Positions 1,468-7,619 of a stretch of 7,619 nt of DNA are shown here, in pieces. The stretch's first letter is position 1. Every line of letters starts with the position of its first letter. The DNA lies in NCBI GenBank assembly GCA_017459485.1, contig JAFUCW010000276.1, positions 1 to 7,619 on the forward strand, read 5' to 3'. The position numbers and the translations under genes were made by a program. This stretch comes from Eggerthellaceae bacterium (GTDB lineage: Bacteria; Actinomycetota; Coriobacteriia; Coriobacteriales; Eggerthellaceae). Below the pieces are notes generated by a model. It was not told where the DNA came from. It searched no databases and worked only from the letters and a program-made list of their open reading frames with translations.

Positions 1468-2388
1468 ATGGCTGCTCTCACAGAAGGCGAGTTCATTTGG
1501 AAAAACGGGGAGCTTGTGCCCTGGGCAGAGGCAACCACACACGTTCTTTCCCATTCGCTTCACTATGGATCCGGCGTGTTCGAGGGCATCCGCTGCTACA
1601 AGGGCGACACCGCAAGCTACGTGTTCAGGCTGGTCGACCACATGGAGCGCCTGCTTAACAGCTGCAAGATCGCCCAGATTCCGTGCACGTGCACAGTTGA
1701 CGATCTGGTCAAGGCTGCAGTGGATACCATCAAGGCCAACAAACTTGAAGCGTGCTACGTCCGTCCGATTGTCTATCGCGGCTACGGCACGATGGGTGTC
1801 GATCCGACCGATGCTCCCGTCGACGTGGTCGTTGCCGTGTGGCCATGGGGCGCCTACCTGGGCGAAGAGGCCCTGGAAAAGGGCATCACCGCAGGCACCA
1901 GTTCGTGGCGGCAGCGTTCGAACAACTCCATCCCGCCCTACATGAAGGCGACGGCTAGCTACATGAACTCCATCCTCGCCAAGCTTGAAGCGAAGGCGCA
2001 TGGTTACGAAGAGGCCGTCATGCTCAACGAGCAAGGCAACGTCTGCGAAGGAACGGGCGAGAACATCTTCATCGTGCGCGACGGGATCATCTCCACGCCT
2101 CAGATCTCCGACGGGATCCTGCCGGGCATTACGCGCGACACGGTCATCCAGCTGGCGTGCGACCTGGACATTCCCGTGATCGAAGAGACGCTTACGCGCT
2201 CGGACCTCTACACCGCAGATGAAGTGTTCTTCACCGGCTCTGCCGCAGAGGTCACTCCCGTCGCAAGCGTGGACGAGCGGCAGATTGGCGGGCGCGGGCC
2301 CATTACCAAGGCAATTCAGGACCGCTTCTTCGAAATGACCGCCGGCCGCCATCCCGAGTATTCTGACTGGTTGTACGAAGTTGAATAG
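1468..2388 (+). CDS. ilvE: Branched-chain amino acid aminotransferase (306 aa)
   Basis: Catalyses the last, reversible step of isoleucine, leucine and valine synthesis: PLP-dependent transfer of the amino group from glutamate to the branched 2-oxo acids. It is a cytosolic fold-type IV aminotransferase. The 306-residue length matches bacterial IlvE. Family features in order: the N-terminal HSLHYGSGVFEGIR (30-42), R99 and Y103 in YVRPIVYRGYGTMG, the PLP lysine K160 in PPYMKATASYMNS, the PLP-ring glutamate E194 in EGTGENIF, the LPGITRD segment (218-224), and the phosphate-binding TGSAAEVTP (256-264). All key residues are intact, so it should be active. The ATG at 1468 is chosen for its strong Shine-Dalgarno site and because upstream in-frame codons encode no family sequence. 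Its stop overlaps the TTG start of cimA, implying one transcript and translational coupling. A D-amino acid aminotransferase is the closest alternative, but the motifs and context favour IlvE. Confidence 0.96.
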   Translation: MAALTEGEFIWKNGELVPWAEATTHVLSHSLHYGSGVFEGIRCYKGDTASYVFRLVDHMERLLNSCKIAQIPCTCTVDDLVKAAVDTIKANKLEACYVRPIVYRGYGTMGVDPTDAPVDVVVAVWPWGAYLGEEALEKGITAGTSSWRQRSNNSIPPYMKATASYMNSILAKLEAKAHGYEEAVMLNEQGNVCEGTGENIFIVRDGIISTPQISDGILPGITRDTVIQLACDLDIPVIEETLTRSDLYTADEVFFTGSAAEVTPVASVDERQIGGRGPITKAIQDRFFEMTAGRHPEYSDWLYEVE

Positions 2389-4150
2389 CATAACAACCTA
2401 CGATTGCACCCTGCGTGACGGGGAGCAAGGGCTTGGCATTGCGCTGTCCTTAGAGGACAAGCTGCGCATCGTGGAGCGGCTCGACGCATTCGGCATTGAC
2501 ATCGTCGAAGGGGGATATCCCGCATCCAACCCGCGCGATATCGAGTTTTTCAAGCGGGTTGCAGGCATGCGCTTGCGGCATGCGCGCATTGCCGCGTTCG
2601 GATCCACGTGTCGCAAGGGTTTGGCCGCTTCGCAGGATGCGGGCATTGCCGCGCTGCTGGAAAGCGGGGCTCCGGTGGTAACGCTGGTGGGCAAGGCCCA
2701 TGCCGGCCACGTGGAAGCCGTTTTGCGCACCACCTTGGAAGAGAACCTGCGCATGGTGGCCGAATCGGTTGCGTATTGCGTTGCCGCTGGGCGCGAAGTG
2801 GTACTCGACGCAGAGCATTTCTTCGACGGCTATGCGGCAAACTCCGACTATGCGCTGGCCGTAGTGTGTGTTGCGGCGGAAGCGGGCGCTTCGTGCGTGT
2901 GCTTGTGCGAAACGAACGGCGGAGCGCTTCCCGACCAGGTGGCGCAAGCCACTGCCGCCGCGCATAGGGCGTTGGGCCTTGGGCCCGCTCCTGGAGTTGC
3001 CGGCGCTTTCGGACAGGAAGGCGAAGTGCGCAGCGCCCGTGCTTCGTCGGAGCCTTCCGGCGACGTTTTGCGTACTGACGAATTGCCCGTTCAAGCTGCG
3101 GGGTCTGCGCCTTCCGGGGCGTCAAGGCAGGTGGCGCTGGGCATCCATTGCCACAACGACTCGGGTTGTGCGGTGGCGAATTCGCTTGCCGCCGTTCAGG
3201 CGGGCGCGACTCATGTCCAAGGCACCATCAACGGCTATGGCGAGCGCGCAGGCAACGCGGACTTGCTTTCGGTCATCGCAAACGTGGAGTTGAAGCTGGG
3301 TTTAAGCTGCTCGCCCGATCTCTCCCAACTTACCAGCACGGCCAACTACGTGGCGGAATGCTGCAACGCAAGCCTACCCGCTAACACGCCCTACACCGGT
3401 TCGGCGGTCTTCGCGCACAAAGGGGGCCTGCACGCCAGCGCCTTGTCGCGCATGGAGGGAGCCTACGAGCACGTGGACCCGGCGGCAGTGGGCAACCAGA
3501 GCAACGTGGTGGTAAGCGAGCTTGCGGGCAAGGCGTCTCTGGTCCAGAAGGCGGCGCAGCTGGGCATTGACCTTCCCGCCGACGAAGCGCTCGTCCAGCG
3601 TATCTTGGACGACGTGAAGGCGCGCGAAGCGGATGGGTACACCTACGAAGTGGCAGACGGTTCGCTTTACCTGCTTATGCTGCGCCATCTGGGAAAACTC
3701 GAGTCTCATTTCACTTTAGAGAGCTTCCGCGTTATTGTGGACGACCGCGAAGACATGGGCAGCTGGGCCAAGGACGCCGCGAGCGAAGCGACCATCAAGA
3801 TTCGCGTGGGAAGCGTGCGCACGGTTGCCACCGGCGAAGGGGCCGGCCCAGTGGGTGCGCTCGACAACGCGCTGCGCATGGCAATCGAGGAGTCTTACCC
3901 TCAGGTTGCGAACATGGAGCTAACGGACTTCAAAGTGCGCTTGTTGGACGAAAACGTGGGAACGGACGCCATCACGCGCGTGCTTATTACCACGTCGGAC
4001 GGCGAAAGCACGTGGGGCACGGTGGGCGTGAGCGAAAACATTATTGAAGCGTCGTGGAACGCCCTGGTCGATTCCATAGAGTACGGCCTGCACAGGATGG
4101 AGTGGCCAAGCGGATCAGGCGCAATGACGAAGCGGGGCAGGCGCGAGTGA
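2381..4150 (+). CDS. cimA: (R)-citramalate synthase (589 aa) with an internal insertion
   Basis: Condenses acetyl-CoA with pyruvate to (R)-citramalate, first step of the threonine-independent route to 2-oxobutyrate and isoleucine. It belongs to the DRE-TIM (isopropylmalate/homocitrate synthase) family. Seen: TLRDGEQ (10-16) with metal ligand D13, the CimA-type segment EGGYPASNP (43-51), LDAEHFFDGY (142-151), CETNGG (176-181), metal ligands H256 and H258 in GIHCHND, VQGTINGYGERAGNADL (279-295), AHKGGLHASA (345-354), and a C-terminal LeuA-type regulatory domain (about 445-572) ending VGVSENIIEASWNALVDSIEY. EGGYPASNP and EHFFDG favour CimA over LeuA or homocitrate synthase. CimA is usually near 520-540 residues; the excess is mostly an insertion at about 200-250. 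The TTG at 2381 (8-bp overlap with ilvE, no good Shine-Dalgarno) is chosen because it puts TLRDG at the family's usual distance; translation is probably coupled to ilvE. Confidence 0.94.
   Translation: MNSITTYDCTLRDGEQGLGIALSLEDKLRIVERLDAFGIDIVEGGYPASNPRDIEFFKRVAGMRLRHARIAAFGSTCRKGLAASQDAGIAALLESGAPVVTLVGKAHAGHVEAVLRTTLEENLRMVAESVAYCVAAGREVVLDAEHFFDGYAANSDYALAVVCVAAEAGASCVCLCETNGGALPDQVAQATAAAHRALGLGPAPGVAGAFGQEGEVRSARASSEPSGDVLRTDELPVQAAGSAPSGASRQVALGIHCHNDSGCAVANSLAAVQAGATHVQGTINGYGERAGNADLLSVIANVELKLGLSCSPDLSQLTSTANYVAECCNASLPANTPYTGSAVFAHKGGLHASALSRMEGAYEHVDPAAVGNQSNVVVSELAGKASLVQKAAQLGIDLPADEALVQRILDDVKAREADGYTYEVADGSLYLLMLRHLGKLESHFTLESFRVIVDDREDMGSWAKDAASEATIKIRVGSVRTVATGEGAGPVGALDNALRMAIEESYPQVANMELTDFKVRLLDENVGTDAITRVLITTSDGESTWGTVGVSENIIEASWNALVDSIEYGLHRMEWPSGSGAMTKRGRRE
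2978..3127 (+). other. In-frame insertion of about 50 codons inside cimA
   Basis: This segment encodes roughly residues 200-249 of CimA. It lies between the helix ending AAAHRALG and the strand starting VALGIHCHND, where CimA relatives have only a short turn. The inserted peptide is rich in Ala, Gly, Ser, Pro and charged residues, looks disordered, and has two similar SEPSGD/SAPSGA patches encoded by an exact 9-mer repeat GCCTTCCGG (3052-3060, 3109-3117). The frame is kept on both sides and all catalytic motifs survive, so it is an insertion in a working gene, not a frameshift. Boundaries are approximate. Confidence 0.7.
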
Positions 4151-4255: not shown

Positions 4256-4543
4256 ATGAGCGATTTGCGCACAGCGGAAGTGGAAGACCTGCTTCACGTT
4301 CTGGTCGGCGTGACCAGCGAAGACGACGCATACGCCTTGTTGGAAGACCTGTTCACCATCCGTGAAATCCGGGAAACGTCCCAGCGCCTTGCGGTCGCGC
4401 GCATGCTTGACGCGGGCAAGCCCTATGTGGCCATCGAGCAGGCAACCGGGGCGTCGGCCACCACCATCGCCCGCGTCTCCAAGGCGCTCAACTACGGCGC
4501 CGGCGGTTACCGCAAAGCCCTCGACATCCTTGCCGCGCCCTAA
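4256..4543 (+). CDS. TrpR-like regulator, YerC/YecD family (95 aa)
   Basis: A small helical DNA-binding protein of the YerC/YecD family, which shares the Trp-repressor fold. Visible family features: an N-terminal helical part (LRTAEVEDLLHVLVGVTSED), the conserved DLFTIREIRETSQRLAVARMLDAGK (31-55), and a helix-turn-helix (about 56-80) with the characteristic GASATTIARVSKALNYG, followed by GGYRKAL. The length of 95 is normal for the family, and the family pattern is complete. It lies 105 bp after cimA on the same strand, with no terminator-like structure in the gap, so it is probably the last gene of the ilvE-cimA transcript. The ligand and target of this family are generally not known. Its position suggests control of branched-chain amino acid synthesis, possibly autoregulation of this operon, but that is inference. 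It is not the classical tryptophan repressor: no trp genes are present. Confidence 0.88.
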   Translation: MSDLRTAEVEDLLHVLVGVTSEDDAYALLEDLFTIREIRETSQRLAVARMLDAGKPYVAIEQATGASATTIARVSKALNYGAGGYRKALDILAAP

Positions 4544-4961: not shown

Positions 4962-5110
4962 TAATGTCTACTATAATGAGGGAATTAGTACGTAATGACA
5001 TGGCTTTTTACGGATTTTCGCCTATGAACTGGGGAAACGAAGGTCATAATATTGTGATAAACTAAGTGTCATTAAGCATATAGGGTTGGTAGACATTATT
5101 TGACATTATT
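4962..5110. repeat. Cluster of GACATTA/TAATGTC inverted and direct repeats
   Basis: TAATGTCTAC (4962-4971) is exactly inverted as GTAGACATTA (5089-5098). GACATTATT is then directly repeated at 5092-5100 and 5102-5110, one helical turn apart. A related pair, TAATGACA (4993-5000) and TGTCATTA (5067-5074), is also inverted. The spacing and the AT-rich setting just downstream of promoter-like boxes suggest regulator binding sites with possible looping. Alternatively the distant arms could pair in the leader RNA. Confidence 0.45.
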
Positions 5111-5204: not shown

Positions 5205-7619
5205 GTGAAGGATGTGACAGGTTTGAGCGCTCAGCCTAGGACACCCAATTCACTGGTAGAGAGAATTTTCAAAGACAGGCGCGTACGCCAAAGACTTCTG
5301 GCGGCGACAACCGTTCTGTCATTGCTCACCGTACTCGTTACCGTGGGCGTCTTGACTAACCCCGCCATCAGCGTTTCTGGTAGCCCGGAAGAGCTGGCCG
5401 AGCAGGGTATTGCCCTTGACGACGGCAACACGGTAGAGATTATCGACGGCCAGGCGCTTCCTGCAGCCTCCGAATCTGCGCAGGGCACCGCACGCGAACT
5501 GGACGCTACCCGTGCTAAATACGTAGACGCCACGGCAGTGCTCGACGAAGCCAATGTGGCCATGCCGCTTACCGAAGAAACCGTGGTCGAAGAGATCGTG
5601 GCCGAAGACGCCGACGCGGCTGCCGCTGCAGCTGCGGCCCAGATCGCAGGCGAAAACGGCACACTTACCTATTCGGCGAAGGCTGAAGAAGCCCTTAAGA
5701 CGGTCGACCTGTCCTCTGCGCGTCTGATCGTGGGCATGGACGAATCGAAGGCTTCCTCCATGGAAAGCGAACAGCACGTCGTAGCCAGCCACGACAACGT
5801 CTACTTGCTGCAATACGCCTCTGCTGACGAAGCTTCGCAGGGCTTCCTGCGCTACTACGACGTAGCGGAATTCGTGGCCCCCGACGTTGCGCTGGAAATC
5901 GCCGAAGGCGAAGAAGGCGAACAGCCCGCTGACCAGGCCGTTCCTGCAGAAGACGGACAGGAAGAAGGCGAGCAGCCGGCCGAAGGCGAAGCAGCCGAAG
6001 GCGACCAGCCCGCAGCCGCGCCTGTGCTGCCCGAAGGCATCTTCGAAACCGAAAGCGGTCAGCTGGTAAACGAGCTGGGCGAACCGGTCGTTACCGAAGA
6101 AGTGGTCGTGCCCGAAAAGGTCGAAGACGACCCTGAAGAACAGACCGTCACTACCGACAACGTGTTCACCGAAGAAGCGAACCCCTTCACCGAGCTTGAA
6201 AGCGCTCTTGACGAAGAAATCGCAGATCAGACCAAGGCAGCCGCCGAATCTAACCAGGTGGCGCTTATCGCCCTTATCGACACCGGCATTGCCGGCAAAG
6301 CCGAAGACAACGCCAACGTGGTCGAGGCCATTTCCGTGCTGGGCGAAGAATTCGCAGACGAAAACGGCAACCCGCTGCCCAGCTACCTGGACGAAAACGG
6401 CCATGGCCAGCGCATGGCAGACTATATAGTAGAAGAGAACGCCGACGCGCGCATCCTGGCCATCAAGGCCCTGGGCAAAGACGGCAAGGGCGACGTGTCC
6501 GCCGTTATCGCAGGCATCAACTACGCCATCGAGCGCGGCGCGAGCATCATCAACCTGTCCGCCGTGGCCTACGCATCCGAAGAAAACGCCGCTTTAGCCG
6601 CCGCCGTCAAGGCCGCCGAAGAAGCAGGCGTTGCGGTTGTCGGCGCTGCCGGCAACCAGGGCTTCAACGCGAAGTACTACATCCCCGCCAACATCGACGA
6701 GGCGCTGGTCGTTGGTGCCGCCAACGAAGTAGGCGTGCGCCTGGCCAAGTCCAACTTCGGCGAAACGGTCGACTACAACGTGGTCGCCGAAAGCACGTCC
6801 GAAGCCGCCGCACGCACCACCGGCTTCGTCTCTGTGTACGGCGAACAGGGCATCGCAGACACCCTGAACCAGGGCAAGTTCTTCCAGGTAGACTTCGTGC
6901 CCCAGGTCATAGAGCTGGTAGAGCCCGAAGCCGAGCCGGAGTCCGAAGGTGAAGAGGGCGAAGCAACCGACGAATCCGAAGGCGAAGAGTCCGAGGCTGC
7001 CGAGGACACCGAAGGCGAACAGCCTACTGAATCCGAAGAGCCCGAAGAAGCCCCCGAAGACTTCGAGGGCATCGAAGTACAGGAAACGGAAAACAAGACC
7101 GGCAAACAGTCCGACGATCTCCCGCAAGATGTCCGGAACAAGCTTGTTGCTCAGCGCACTGGCACAAACGGTGCCGATGGCGCCTTTACCGAAACAACGG
7201 TAAACACGTGGGATGCTCTCGAATGGGCAGTCAACAACTGCGCGTCTGGCAAGCCCGTTACTATTAAACTAGGTGCCAACTTGGCTGCATATAAGACGAT
7301 CACCATTCCTGCAGGCAAGAACATCAAGATTGTTGCCGGGACAGGCACAACCGTCTACCGCGACAGCTCTCCAGCAAGCGGCATGGCATCGTTCTTCAAC
7401 GTCGAGGGCGAGCTGGATATCTCGAATGTCGAGCTGAGCGGGCAAGCGGTGTCCAGCACGATATCCTGGACGGAAACCACCACAGGTGGCACTCCGATCT
7501 ATGATAATGCAGGCCTGGCTGTTTCTGCAGGCACCGTTCACACCGACTCGACAAGCCAGAGTGCCCAGGTTGCTGGCCAGTATGTAAAGAAAGTAGACAA
7601 CGGCTTCCAGCTCGTGAAC
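5205..7619 (+). CDS. Large surface protein: divergent subtilisin (S8) domain followed by a beta-helix-like region (runs off right edge)
   Basis: An open frame of at least 805 codons with no stop. Residues 31-55 are a hydrophobic segment after a basic stretch (RIFKDRRVRQR): long signal peptide or membrane anchor. Residues about 172-232 (ARLIVGMDES to VAEFVAPDVALEI) resemble a subtilase I9-type propeptide. An acidic EGE/EQPA linker follows (234-273, still acidic to about 340), then an S8 domain: D359 in ALIDTGI, H400 in NGHGQRMA, SIINLS, N484 in GAAGNQG, YIPANIDEALVVGAA, SNFGETVDYNVVA and S532 in STSEAAARTTG, where the family has GTSMAAPHVAG. N484 to S532 is 48 residues against 66 in subtilisin BPN', and the C-terminal helices look eroded, so activity is uncertain. 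A second acidic repeat (573-622) leads to a beta-helix-like region (TWDALEWAVNN, then TITIPAGKNIKI). Start uncertain: GTG 5205 (AGGAG only 3 nt away), GTG 5214, TTG 5223 or TTG 5100. Confidence 0.88.
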   Translation, partial: MKDVTGLSAQPRTPNSLVERIFKDRRVRQRLLAATTVLSLLTVLVTVGVLTNPAISVSGSPEELAEQGIALDDGNTVEIIDGQALPAASESAQGTARELDATRAKYVDATAVLDEANVAMPLTEETVVEEIVAEDADAAAAAAAAQIAGENGTLTYSAKAEEALKTVDLSSARLIVGMDESKASSMESEQHVVASHDNVYLLQYASADEASQGFLRYYDVAEFVAPDVALEIAEGEEGEQPADQAVPAEDGQEEGEQPAEGEAAEGDQPAAAPVLPEGIFETESGQLVNELGEPVVTEEVVVPEKVEDDPEEQTVTTDNVFTEEANPFTELESALDEEIADQTKAAAESNQVALIALIDTGIAGKAEDNANVVEAISVLGEEFADENGNPLPSYLDENGHGQRMADYIVEENADARILAIKALGKDGKGDVSAVIAGINYAIERGASIINLSAVAYASEENAALAAAVKAAEEAGVAVVGAAGNQGFNAKYYIPANIDEALVVGAANEVGVRLAKSNFGETVDYNVVAESTSEAAARTTGFVSVYGEQGIADTLNQGKFFQVDFVPQVIELVEPEAEPESEGEEGEATDESEGEESEAAEDTEGEQPTESEEPEEAPEDFEGIEVQETENKTGKQSDDLPQDVRNKLVAQRTGTNGADGAFTETTVNTWDALEWAVNNCASGKPVTIKLGANLAAYKTITIPAGKNIKIVAGTGTTVYRDSSPASGMASFFNVEGELDISNVELSGQAVSSTISWTETTTGGTPIYDNAGLAVSAGTVHTDSTSQSAQVAGQYVKKVDNGFQLVN
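5904..6023 (+). repeat. Acidic EGE/EQPA repeat linker between propeptide-like and S8 domains
   Basis: Codes for residues 234-273, a low-complexity run of EGEEGEQPA, EEGEQPAEGEAAEGDQPA type, with repeated GAA GGC GAA codons. It is strongly negatively charged and probably extended. It separates the propeptide-like region from the catalytic-type domain, where most subtilases have a direct junction. The purine-rich repeat also creates long open frames on the opposite strand, which are artefacts. Confidence 0.8.
6921..7070 (+). repeat. Second acidic repeat linker, after the S8 domain
   Basis: Codes for residues 573-622, again dominated by Glu with Ser, Gly, Pro and Thr (ESEGEEGEATDESEGEESE type). 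It shares the EGEQP motif with the first linker, suggesting both arose by expansion of the same codon motif. It marks the boundary between the subtilase-like domain and the beta-helix-like adhesin region. Confidence 0.8.

Follow-up and report, generated by a model that had tools for sequence, protein, structure and literature searches.

Can a subtilase whose serine motif has lost its usual residues still be a working protease? This question is raised by an open reading frame (ORF) in the window, by which we mean the whole stretch of DNA analysed: the entire 7619-base contig JAFUCW010000276.1 of an Eggerthellaceae bacterium (assembly GCA_017459485.1; source genome 2.43 Mb in 504 contigs, 72% complete). 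The ORF (5205..7619, + strand; GTG start, 805 codons, running off the contig end) appears to encode a subtilase-headed surface protein. The frame is also open from a TTG at 5100 (840 residues), and the GTG at 5205 was taken as the start because it matches the numbering of the initial annotation and is preceded by an AGGAG stretch. Our results point to a distinct subtilase branch, likely an active, self-processing module at the N-terminus of a predicted sortase-anchored adhesin, a reading to which we give a probability of about 0.55.

The subtilase (S8) catalytic domain occupies residues 350-562 (6252..6890, +), and its serine region is remodelled. Counted from GTG 5205, the codons of D359, H400, N484 and S532 start at 6279, 6402, 6654 and 6798, exactly where the initial annotation had seen the catalytic residues. 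The catalytic Asp (D359, 6279..6281, +), the catalytic His (H400, 6402..6404, +) and the oxyanion-hole Asn (N484, 6654..6656, +) are each present in 128/128 rows of a first alignment, which comprised the window, the relatives L002-L008 and 120 proteins, L009 and L010 not being counted. In the serine motif STSEAAARTTG (residues 530-540, 6792..6824, +), S532 takes the place of the subtilisin nucleophile, and S530, E533 and A536 those of Gly219, Met222 and Pro225; the absence of Gly, Met, Pro and His, pointed out earlier, is borne out by the sequence. The shortening between Asn and Ser, previously estimated at about 18 residues, amounts to 19 (48 in the window vs 67 in L009, a canonical Solibacillus subtilase), and the distance from His to Asn is 84 against 91 in L009, 7 fewer. 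The lost 19-residue stretch presumably corresponds to the part of subtilisin that precedes Ser221 and includes residue 217.

The excised domain matches PF00082 with E values of 3e-17 and 2e-17 (63.3 and 63.8 bits, cut-off 21.8), as do 10/10 members of set A3; a weak LeuA_dimer match in 2/10 members of that set (best E 0.0063) was treated as chance. The PF00082 alignment stops at profile position 211/288, and alignments to subtilisin BPN' end at VDY or VDYNV, directly before the shortened part. The front of the catalytic domain is thus an ordinary subtilase and the serine part goes unrecognised by the profile, so that no canonical S8 match extends over the whole domain, in keeping with the altered serine region described in the initial annotation. 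The domain scores above the profile cut-off, holds the D-H-S triad and the oxyanion Asn in order, has a predicted subtilisin fold, and shares with subtilisin BPN' and other S8 members the GxGxxS segment and an I9-like prodomain. It differs from them in the 19-residue loss, in the missing GTSxxxPH motif and in a shorter C-terminal tail. The canonical motif GTSxAxPx[VIL]xG is absent from the branch, position 530 never being Gly and position 536 never Pro in 255 readable copies. Subtilases with variant serine motifs exist, and the missing motif therefore marks a separate branch and leaves family membership intact.

A Pfam scan of the full 840-residue frame gave zero matches up to E 1. We suppose that this is a filter effect of the acidic linkers, since excision of the domain restores the match. 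Full-length scans missed PF00082 in the window protein, L002, L003 and L004 and detected it in L006; by hand count, the precomputed Pfam label is carried by 20/120 listed proteins in the search with the L004 domain and 61/120 in the search with the window. One 1,998-residue relative, P0051, carries the Pfam labels PF00082 and PF06280, the latter of which we take to be the Fn3/C5a-type domain. For the window protein NCBIfam gave only three matches, all to subtilase families and all sub-threshold, by which identity with mycosin (TIGR03921, 59.2 bits vs an equivalog cut-off of 278.75), QhpE (NF049966, 51.6 bits vs an equivalog cut-off of 165) and the PatA/PatG protease (TIGR03895, 49 bits vs 421.05) was rejected. 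The branch is real and often unlabelled in databases, a variant of known subtilases with predicted activity.

Conservation and distribution of the branch

D359, H400, N484, S516, N517, G519, T531, S532 and A536 are invariant in the 128 rows, although A536 is not absolute, given that P0007 and P0008 hold an additional upstream copy with Ser at this position. After clustering, the D/H/N/T/S positions remain invariant in 39/39 clusters at 70% and 31/31 at 60% identity, and the Asn-Ser spacing is 48 in all 31 of the latter. An enlarged set of 234 listed proteins, 17 loci and the window, with some duplicates and the window counted twice, yielded 256 domain rows with a serine column, 255 of them readable at the four catalytic positions: 252 read D/H/N/S, one D/H/E/A, one D/H/D/S and one D/Q/D/A, so that the N484 column holds D or E in 3/255. 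The partial row is the first copy of P0025, with S in the Asp column and A in the Ser column. Position 530 is S in 234 copies (T in 12, A in 7, N and F in 1 each), position 533 is E in 238/255, and at position 536 the copies have A (253) or S (2). An Asn-Ser spacing of 48 is kept by 255/256 rows, the remaining one having 46, and the His-Asn spacing is 84 in 240/256. At positions 454 and 455, presumably Gly127-Gly128 of subtilisin, S is found in 117 and A in 122 of the 128 rows; the window has V and A.

At least one complete catalytic set is present in 249/251 readable related proteins, the exceptions being L034 and L019. Two subtilase copies per chain occur in 5/252 proteins (P0006, P0007, P0008, P0010 and P0025). 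In P0010 and P0025 the first, N-terminal copy is dead and the second intact, so an intact partner accompanies two of the three Ser-less copies. Two matches also lie inside one 3,194-codon frame of another contig (G128:C88). Whether Ser532 is conserved among homologues was the check proposed for the initial annotation, and it does not vary freely, the catalytic set being complete in 252/255 readable copies. Nor can the serine region be called eroded, as had been suggested: its remodelled form recurs across the whole branch and characterises the subfamily as a conserved signature. The possibility that one gene alone has decayed was rejected, given the catalytic set and spacing kept in 31/31 clusters at 60% identity and the separate position of the members in the tree. 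In that tree 58 members (65% clusters, P0121, which is the window, and redundant rows dropped) are split from 30 canonical subtilases, drawn from the same kind of search, by one branch with support 100/100; the bootstrap is unsettled and the root is a drawing choice. The dead first copies of P0010 and P0025 group together (100/98).

The protein searches returned the best 120 of 478 relatives for the L004 domain and the best 120 of 197 for the window, 114 of the latter being new ids. These searches require shared 5-residue words, and scoring in the window search was confined to the 7,993 candidates with the most words in common; motif conservation in the searched protein sets is therefore partly built in. 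Scanning genomes with a profile carries less of this bias. In the window's class such a scan gave at least 207.9 bits in 12/396 genomes, the next score listed being 113.7. Nine loci at or above 205 bits were checked, of which eight read xTSxA[ASC][AS] and one has a dead STA form; among 18 checked below 205 bits, 17 have GTS, and in one low-scoring locus (L079) the serine motif was not found. Genomes G034 and G117 hold members yet are absent from the class profile listing, either because they were not drawn or because the scan missed them. In the class to which the genome of L004 belongs, 202/391 genomes match at E 0.001, mainly ordinary subtilases judged by score, and 4/391 reach at least 120 bits, including the seed genome G138 and L036, a locus cut before the serine. 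We take the two classes to be Coriobacteriia and Clostridia.

Within the window's family, a single-sequence search gave matches in 11/138 genomes, the canonical subtilases L026 and L021 among them. A one-genome-per-species scan with the domain found nine loci, two canonical ones in Solibacillus and seven with the remodelled serine region (two metagenome-assembled genomes, MAGs, of Eggerthellaceae/Coriobacteriaceae, two Parasporobacterium, two Blautia and one Clostridiales MAG). The branch is scattered rather than common, and it spans two phyla. Genome G644, from family f2 of the same order, consists of two contigs and holds four copies, all in contig C1, in open frames of 3,286 to 6,421 codons.

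Adhesins and pilus genes

The downstream region of the window protein, of which the start is covered (7131..7448, +), resembles adhesins in phmmer searches: L012 of the same genus (E 3.4e-12), P0061 (8.3e-12) and, over a slightly shorter stretch, P0044 (8.8e-11). The region lies after residue 643 and has few available relatives. This similarity makes the same architecture likely for the window protein, whose truncated gene would encode the front part of a giant surface adhesin. Whole-protein scans covered L002, L003, L004 and L006 of the seven named relatives, and detected SpaA in 4/4, a thioester domain in 2/4 and an anchor above cut-off in 2/4. L002 and L003, both of the window's genus, are proteins of 2,849 and 2,921 residues that combine SpaA repeats with a thioester domain and an LPXTG anchor. 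The anchor match of L004 scores 19.8 vs a cut-off of 20, and a sortase and a pilin are present there, in the order pilin, adhesin, class C sortase.

Downstream of the L002 and L003 genes (loci L063 and L064) lie genes for a signal peptidase I (TIGR02227), for a backbone pilin (in L063 GramPos_pilinBB, in L064 SpaH/EbpB-type and slightly below cut-off) and for a class C sortase, which scores 270 and 265 bits (cut-off 160). The L063 locus continues with a minor pilin, in which SpaA and Cna_B domains were detected, and another sortase-domain protein. Locus L065 in genome G034 has the identical gene order, read from sequence alone except for the signal peptidase. The LPXTG anchor together with a class C sortase and backbone pilin beside the gene is seen in L002/L063 and L003/L064; the window contig ends within the gene. 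A parallel among known systems is Cpa, at the tip of the group A streptococcal pilus, which is likewise sortase-linked and whose operon, in the part of the source available, includes a signal peptidase I homologue, a backbone pilin and a pilus sortase (PMC7900414). The thioester domain of the two same-genus relatives is also a Cpa-type feature. The pilus sortase of that system is of class B, whereas here it is of class C, and the available part of the paper mentions no protease domain for Cpa (PMC7900414).

No description of this family of subtilase domains on pilins or adhesins was found in the open-access titles and abstract openings searched. The branch places a protease domain whose active site has been rebuilt at the head of very large adhesins, often without a database label. 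If it is active, some Gram-positive surface fibres would carry their own enzyme distally, and the fibres could link their attachment to cutting, ripening or release. The branch also offers a natural test of which parts of subtilisin are dispensable, as the triad persists while Gly219, Met222, Pro225, His226 and the residues preceding the serine have been altered or lost.

Prodomain, predicted self-cleavage and rival explanations

An I9-like prodomain (residues 168-233, 5706..5903, +) is indicated by an AlphaFold2 (AF2) model (md8bf524b5ad4) and by conserved columns. In the numbering of the model its strands (E) and helices (H) are E14-18, H21-27, E33-37, E40-44, H48-59, E64-67 and E70-73. A VIA alignment to unprocessed pro-subtilisin spans model residues 11-402, and PCSK9 was also matched; the fold predicted corresponds to a pro-subtilisin before processing. 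D359 ends strand 195-200 and H400 starts helix 241-252. The helices after the serine, earlier described as hardly visible, are present in the model: a 15-residue helix begins at T531-S532 (372-386) and a short one follows (389-393). Prodomain residue 203 is aligned in 193/256 rows, and the aligned prodomain has a mean column identity of 0.51 vs 0.60 for the catalytic domain (62 clusters), with R173 at 95% and D227 at 97% in 65%-clustered rows. In the prodomain tail D227 is kept in 38/39 clusters, and positions 230 and 232 are mostly I/V/M/L and I/A/V, respectively; of the 39 clusters, 23 have A and 9 have C at residue 233, and 29 have E or D at 234. The tail of an I9 prodomain fills the active site and is then cut, and from this pattern we infer probable self-cleavage after A233.

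The following course of events may be envisaged. The adhesin would be exported first, and the I9-like prodomain would fold the catalytic domain, its C-terminal tail (...ALEIA) being laid in the active site. S532 would then cleave behind the small residue (A or C) preceding the acidic stretch, and the matured domain would stay in a distal position on the adhesin, kept at a distance from the cell by a pilus or fibre. The 19-residue loss is predicted to remove the prime-side wall, and the replacements at 454-455 suggest a small S1 pocket, in agreement with A or C at the predicted P1. Taken together, the reduced prime-side wall and the small S1 pocket lead us to expect narrow specificity: with the S1 pocket cramped and the S1'/S2' wall nearly absent, a narrow set of substrates would be left, the protein itself first among them. 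An enzyme that at least processes itself is favoured because the catalytic set and the prodomain are kept, the predicted fold is that of a pro-subtilisin, and two of three Ser-less copies are partnered by an intact one.

Several observations weigh against this interpretation. All four usual motif residues (Gly219, Met222, Pro225 and His226) are replaced, and the window has V454 where most members have S. The comparison of the model was made at the level of secondary-structure positions. In L034 the oxyanion Asn is changed to Asp. L019/L077 (G129:C169), from the window's own family, has Gln for His, Asp for Asn and Ala for Ser, a natural pseudo-protease, and no second copy was seen on its short contig. 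The aligned prodomain core is missing in 63/256 catalytic rows, 51 of which begin at residue 1 of the called protein. An acidic P1', as predicted, does not obviously suit Glu at 533, and the window contig ends before any thioester domain, SpaA or LPXTG part. Four of the rows that begin at residue 1 were read (P0192, P0182, P0222 and P0206), and these begin inside the prodomain (MNAYTYFK...). Such starts, which probably occur in others of the 51, may be misannotated or have their upstream part in another frame.

The initial annotation had left the choice between a pseudo-protease and a protease of narrow, possibly self-directed specificity. The former, in which the fold is retained as a binding or spacer module and cutting is lost, agrees with a serine motif without Gly, Pro and His and with the dead copies that do exist (the first copies of P0010 and P0025, and L019/L077), and the available sources give examples of inactive subtilases that serve in binding or signalling (CspC/CspA, PCSK9). 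Retention of all four catalytic positions in 252/255 copies is not what a binding module would lead one to expect, and an intact copy adjoins two of the three Ser-less ones. We consider this alternative unlikely for the branch and applicable to a few copies, while the narrow or self-directed protease fits the catalytic set, the I9-like prodomain and the pro-subtilisin fold better. A rather improbable intermediate is an enzyme of the PCSK9/CspB kind, which would make a single prodomain cut, keep the prodomain bound and then serve as a binding or regulated module. The pro-subtilase fold match to PCSK9 is shared with it, although other pro-subtilisins match equally well and the observations extend to the presence of the prodomain and its predicted docking. 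We know of no adhesin or sortase-anchored part in PCSK9 or CspB/CspBA. CspBA of C. difficile likewise pairs an active copy with a dead one within a single chain, according to the part of the source available (PMC3567191).

The altered positions also invite comparison with peptide ligases. Engineered subtilisin ligases keep the canonical Asn-Ser spacing. In the available part of one account, P225A, changes at 222 and 217 (residues of the S1' pocket) and a variant without the Ca loop were used to turn subtilisin into a ligase (PMC7921005). A natural transpeptidase passing the acyl-enzyme to an amine instead of water, and so joining adhesin or pilin chains, would suit A536 at the P225A site shared by subtiligase and peptiligase, Glu at 222 and the deletion of 217, both altered in peptiligase for the S1' pocket (altered 222 and altered or absent 217 being common to the subtiligase, peptiligase and omniligase group), and a His-Asn span, the site of the Ca loop, that is 7 residues shorter. 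On the other hand, the nucleophile is Ser here and Cys221 in the engineered enzymes, and at 225 Asn, Asp, Ser, Cys and Gly outperformed Ala, as far as the accessible text reports (PMC7921005). The likeness lies in residues, with no known acceptor, and we regard such a ligase as very improbable. Its strong form, in which a gut-bacterial adhesin subtilase, having lost Pro225 and the wall on the leaving-group side, would cut its own prodomain junction and join the acyl end to an amine of a partner adhesin, a pilin or a surface, welding itself on, seems a shade less probable still. Hardly any weight is given to a broad degradative surface protease resembling cell-envelope proteinases: the N-terminal position on long stalk proteins at the surface would suit it, but the prime-side wall is shortened, the Gly positions of the S1 wall are replaced, and no Fn3/C5a-type domain was found in the window or the four scanned relatives, though P0051 is labelled so. 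The self-processing subtilase at the head of an adhesin thus remains the preferred reading.

Remaining features of the window

Near the N-terminus of the window protein, a hydrophobic stretch (residues 31-50, 5295..5354, +) is predicted from sequence to be an export signal or membrane segment, and L002 and L003 carry a comparable one. Between prodomain and catalytic domain lies an acidic linker (residues 234-317, 5904..6155, +; 32% D/E), which is mostly window-specific, columns 240-306 being gapped in 110-127 of 128 aligned rows, and much of which has a predicted local distance difference test (pLDDT) score below 50 in the AF2 model. At 84 residues it is far longer than its counterpart in most relatives. 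It is followed by a conserved pre-catalytic segment with N326-P327 (6156..6212, +; P327 in 128/128 and N326 in 122/128 rows). A second acidic linker (6891..7130, +; 42% D/E over residues 563-640) separates the catalytic domain from the downstream region.

The contig start cuts a frame on the - strand (2-874) with a signal-like N-terminus, for which the family search gave nothing confident (best Pfam E 0.15). Upstream of the subtilase ORF the Pfam scan places an aminotransferase IV gene (1450-2388), followed by a LeuA/citramalate-synthase-like gene (about 2381-4147, +) and a Trp-repressor-family gene (4256-4540). In the LeuA/citramalate-synthase-like protein the HMGL domain match is split in two, with an apparent insertion at approximately residues 205-248.

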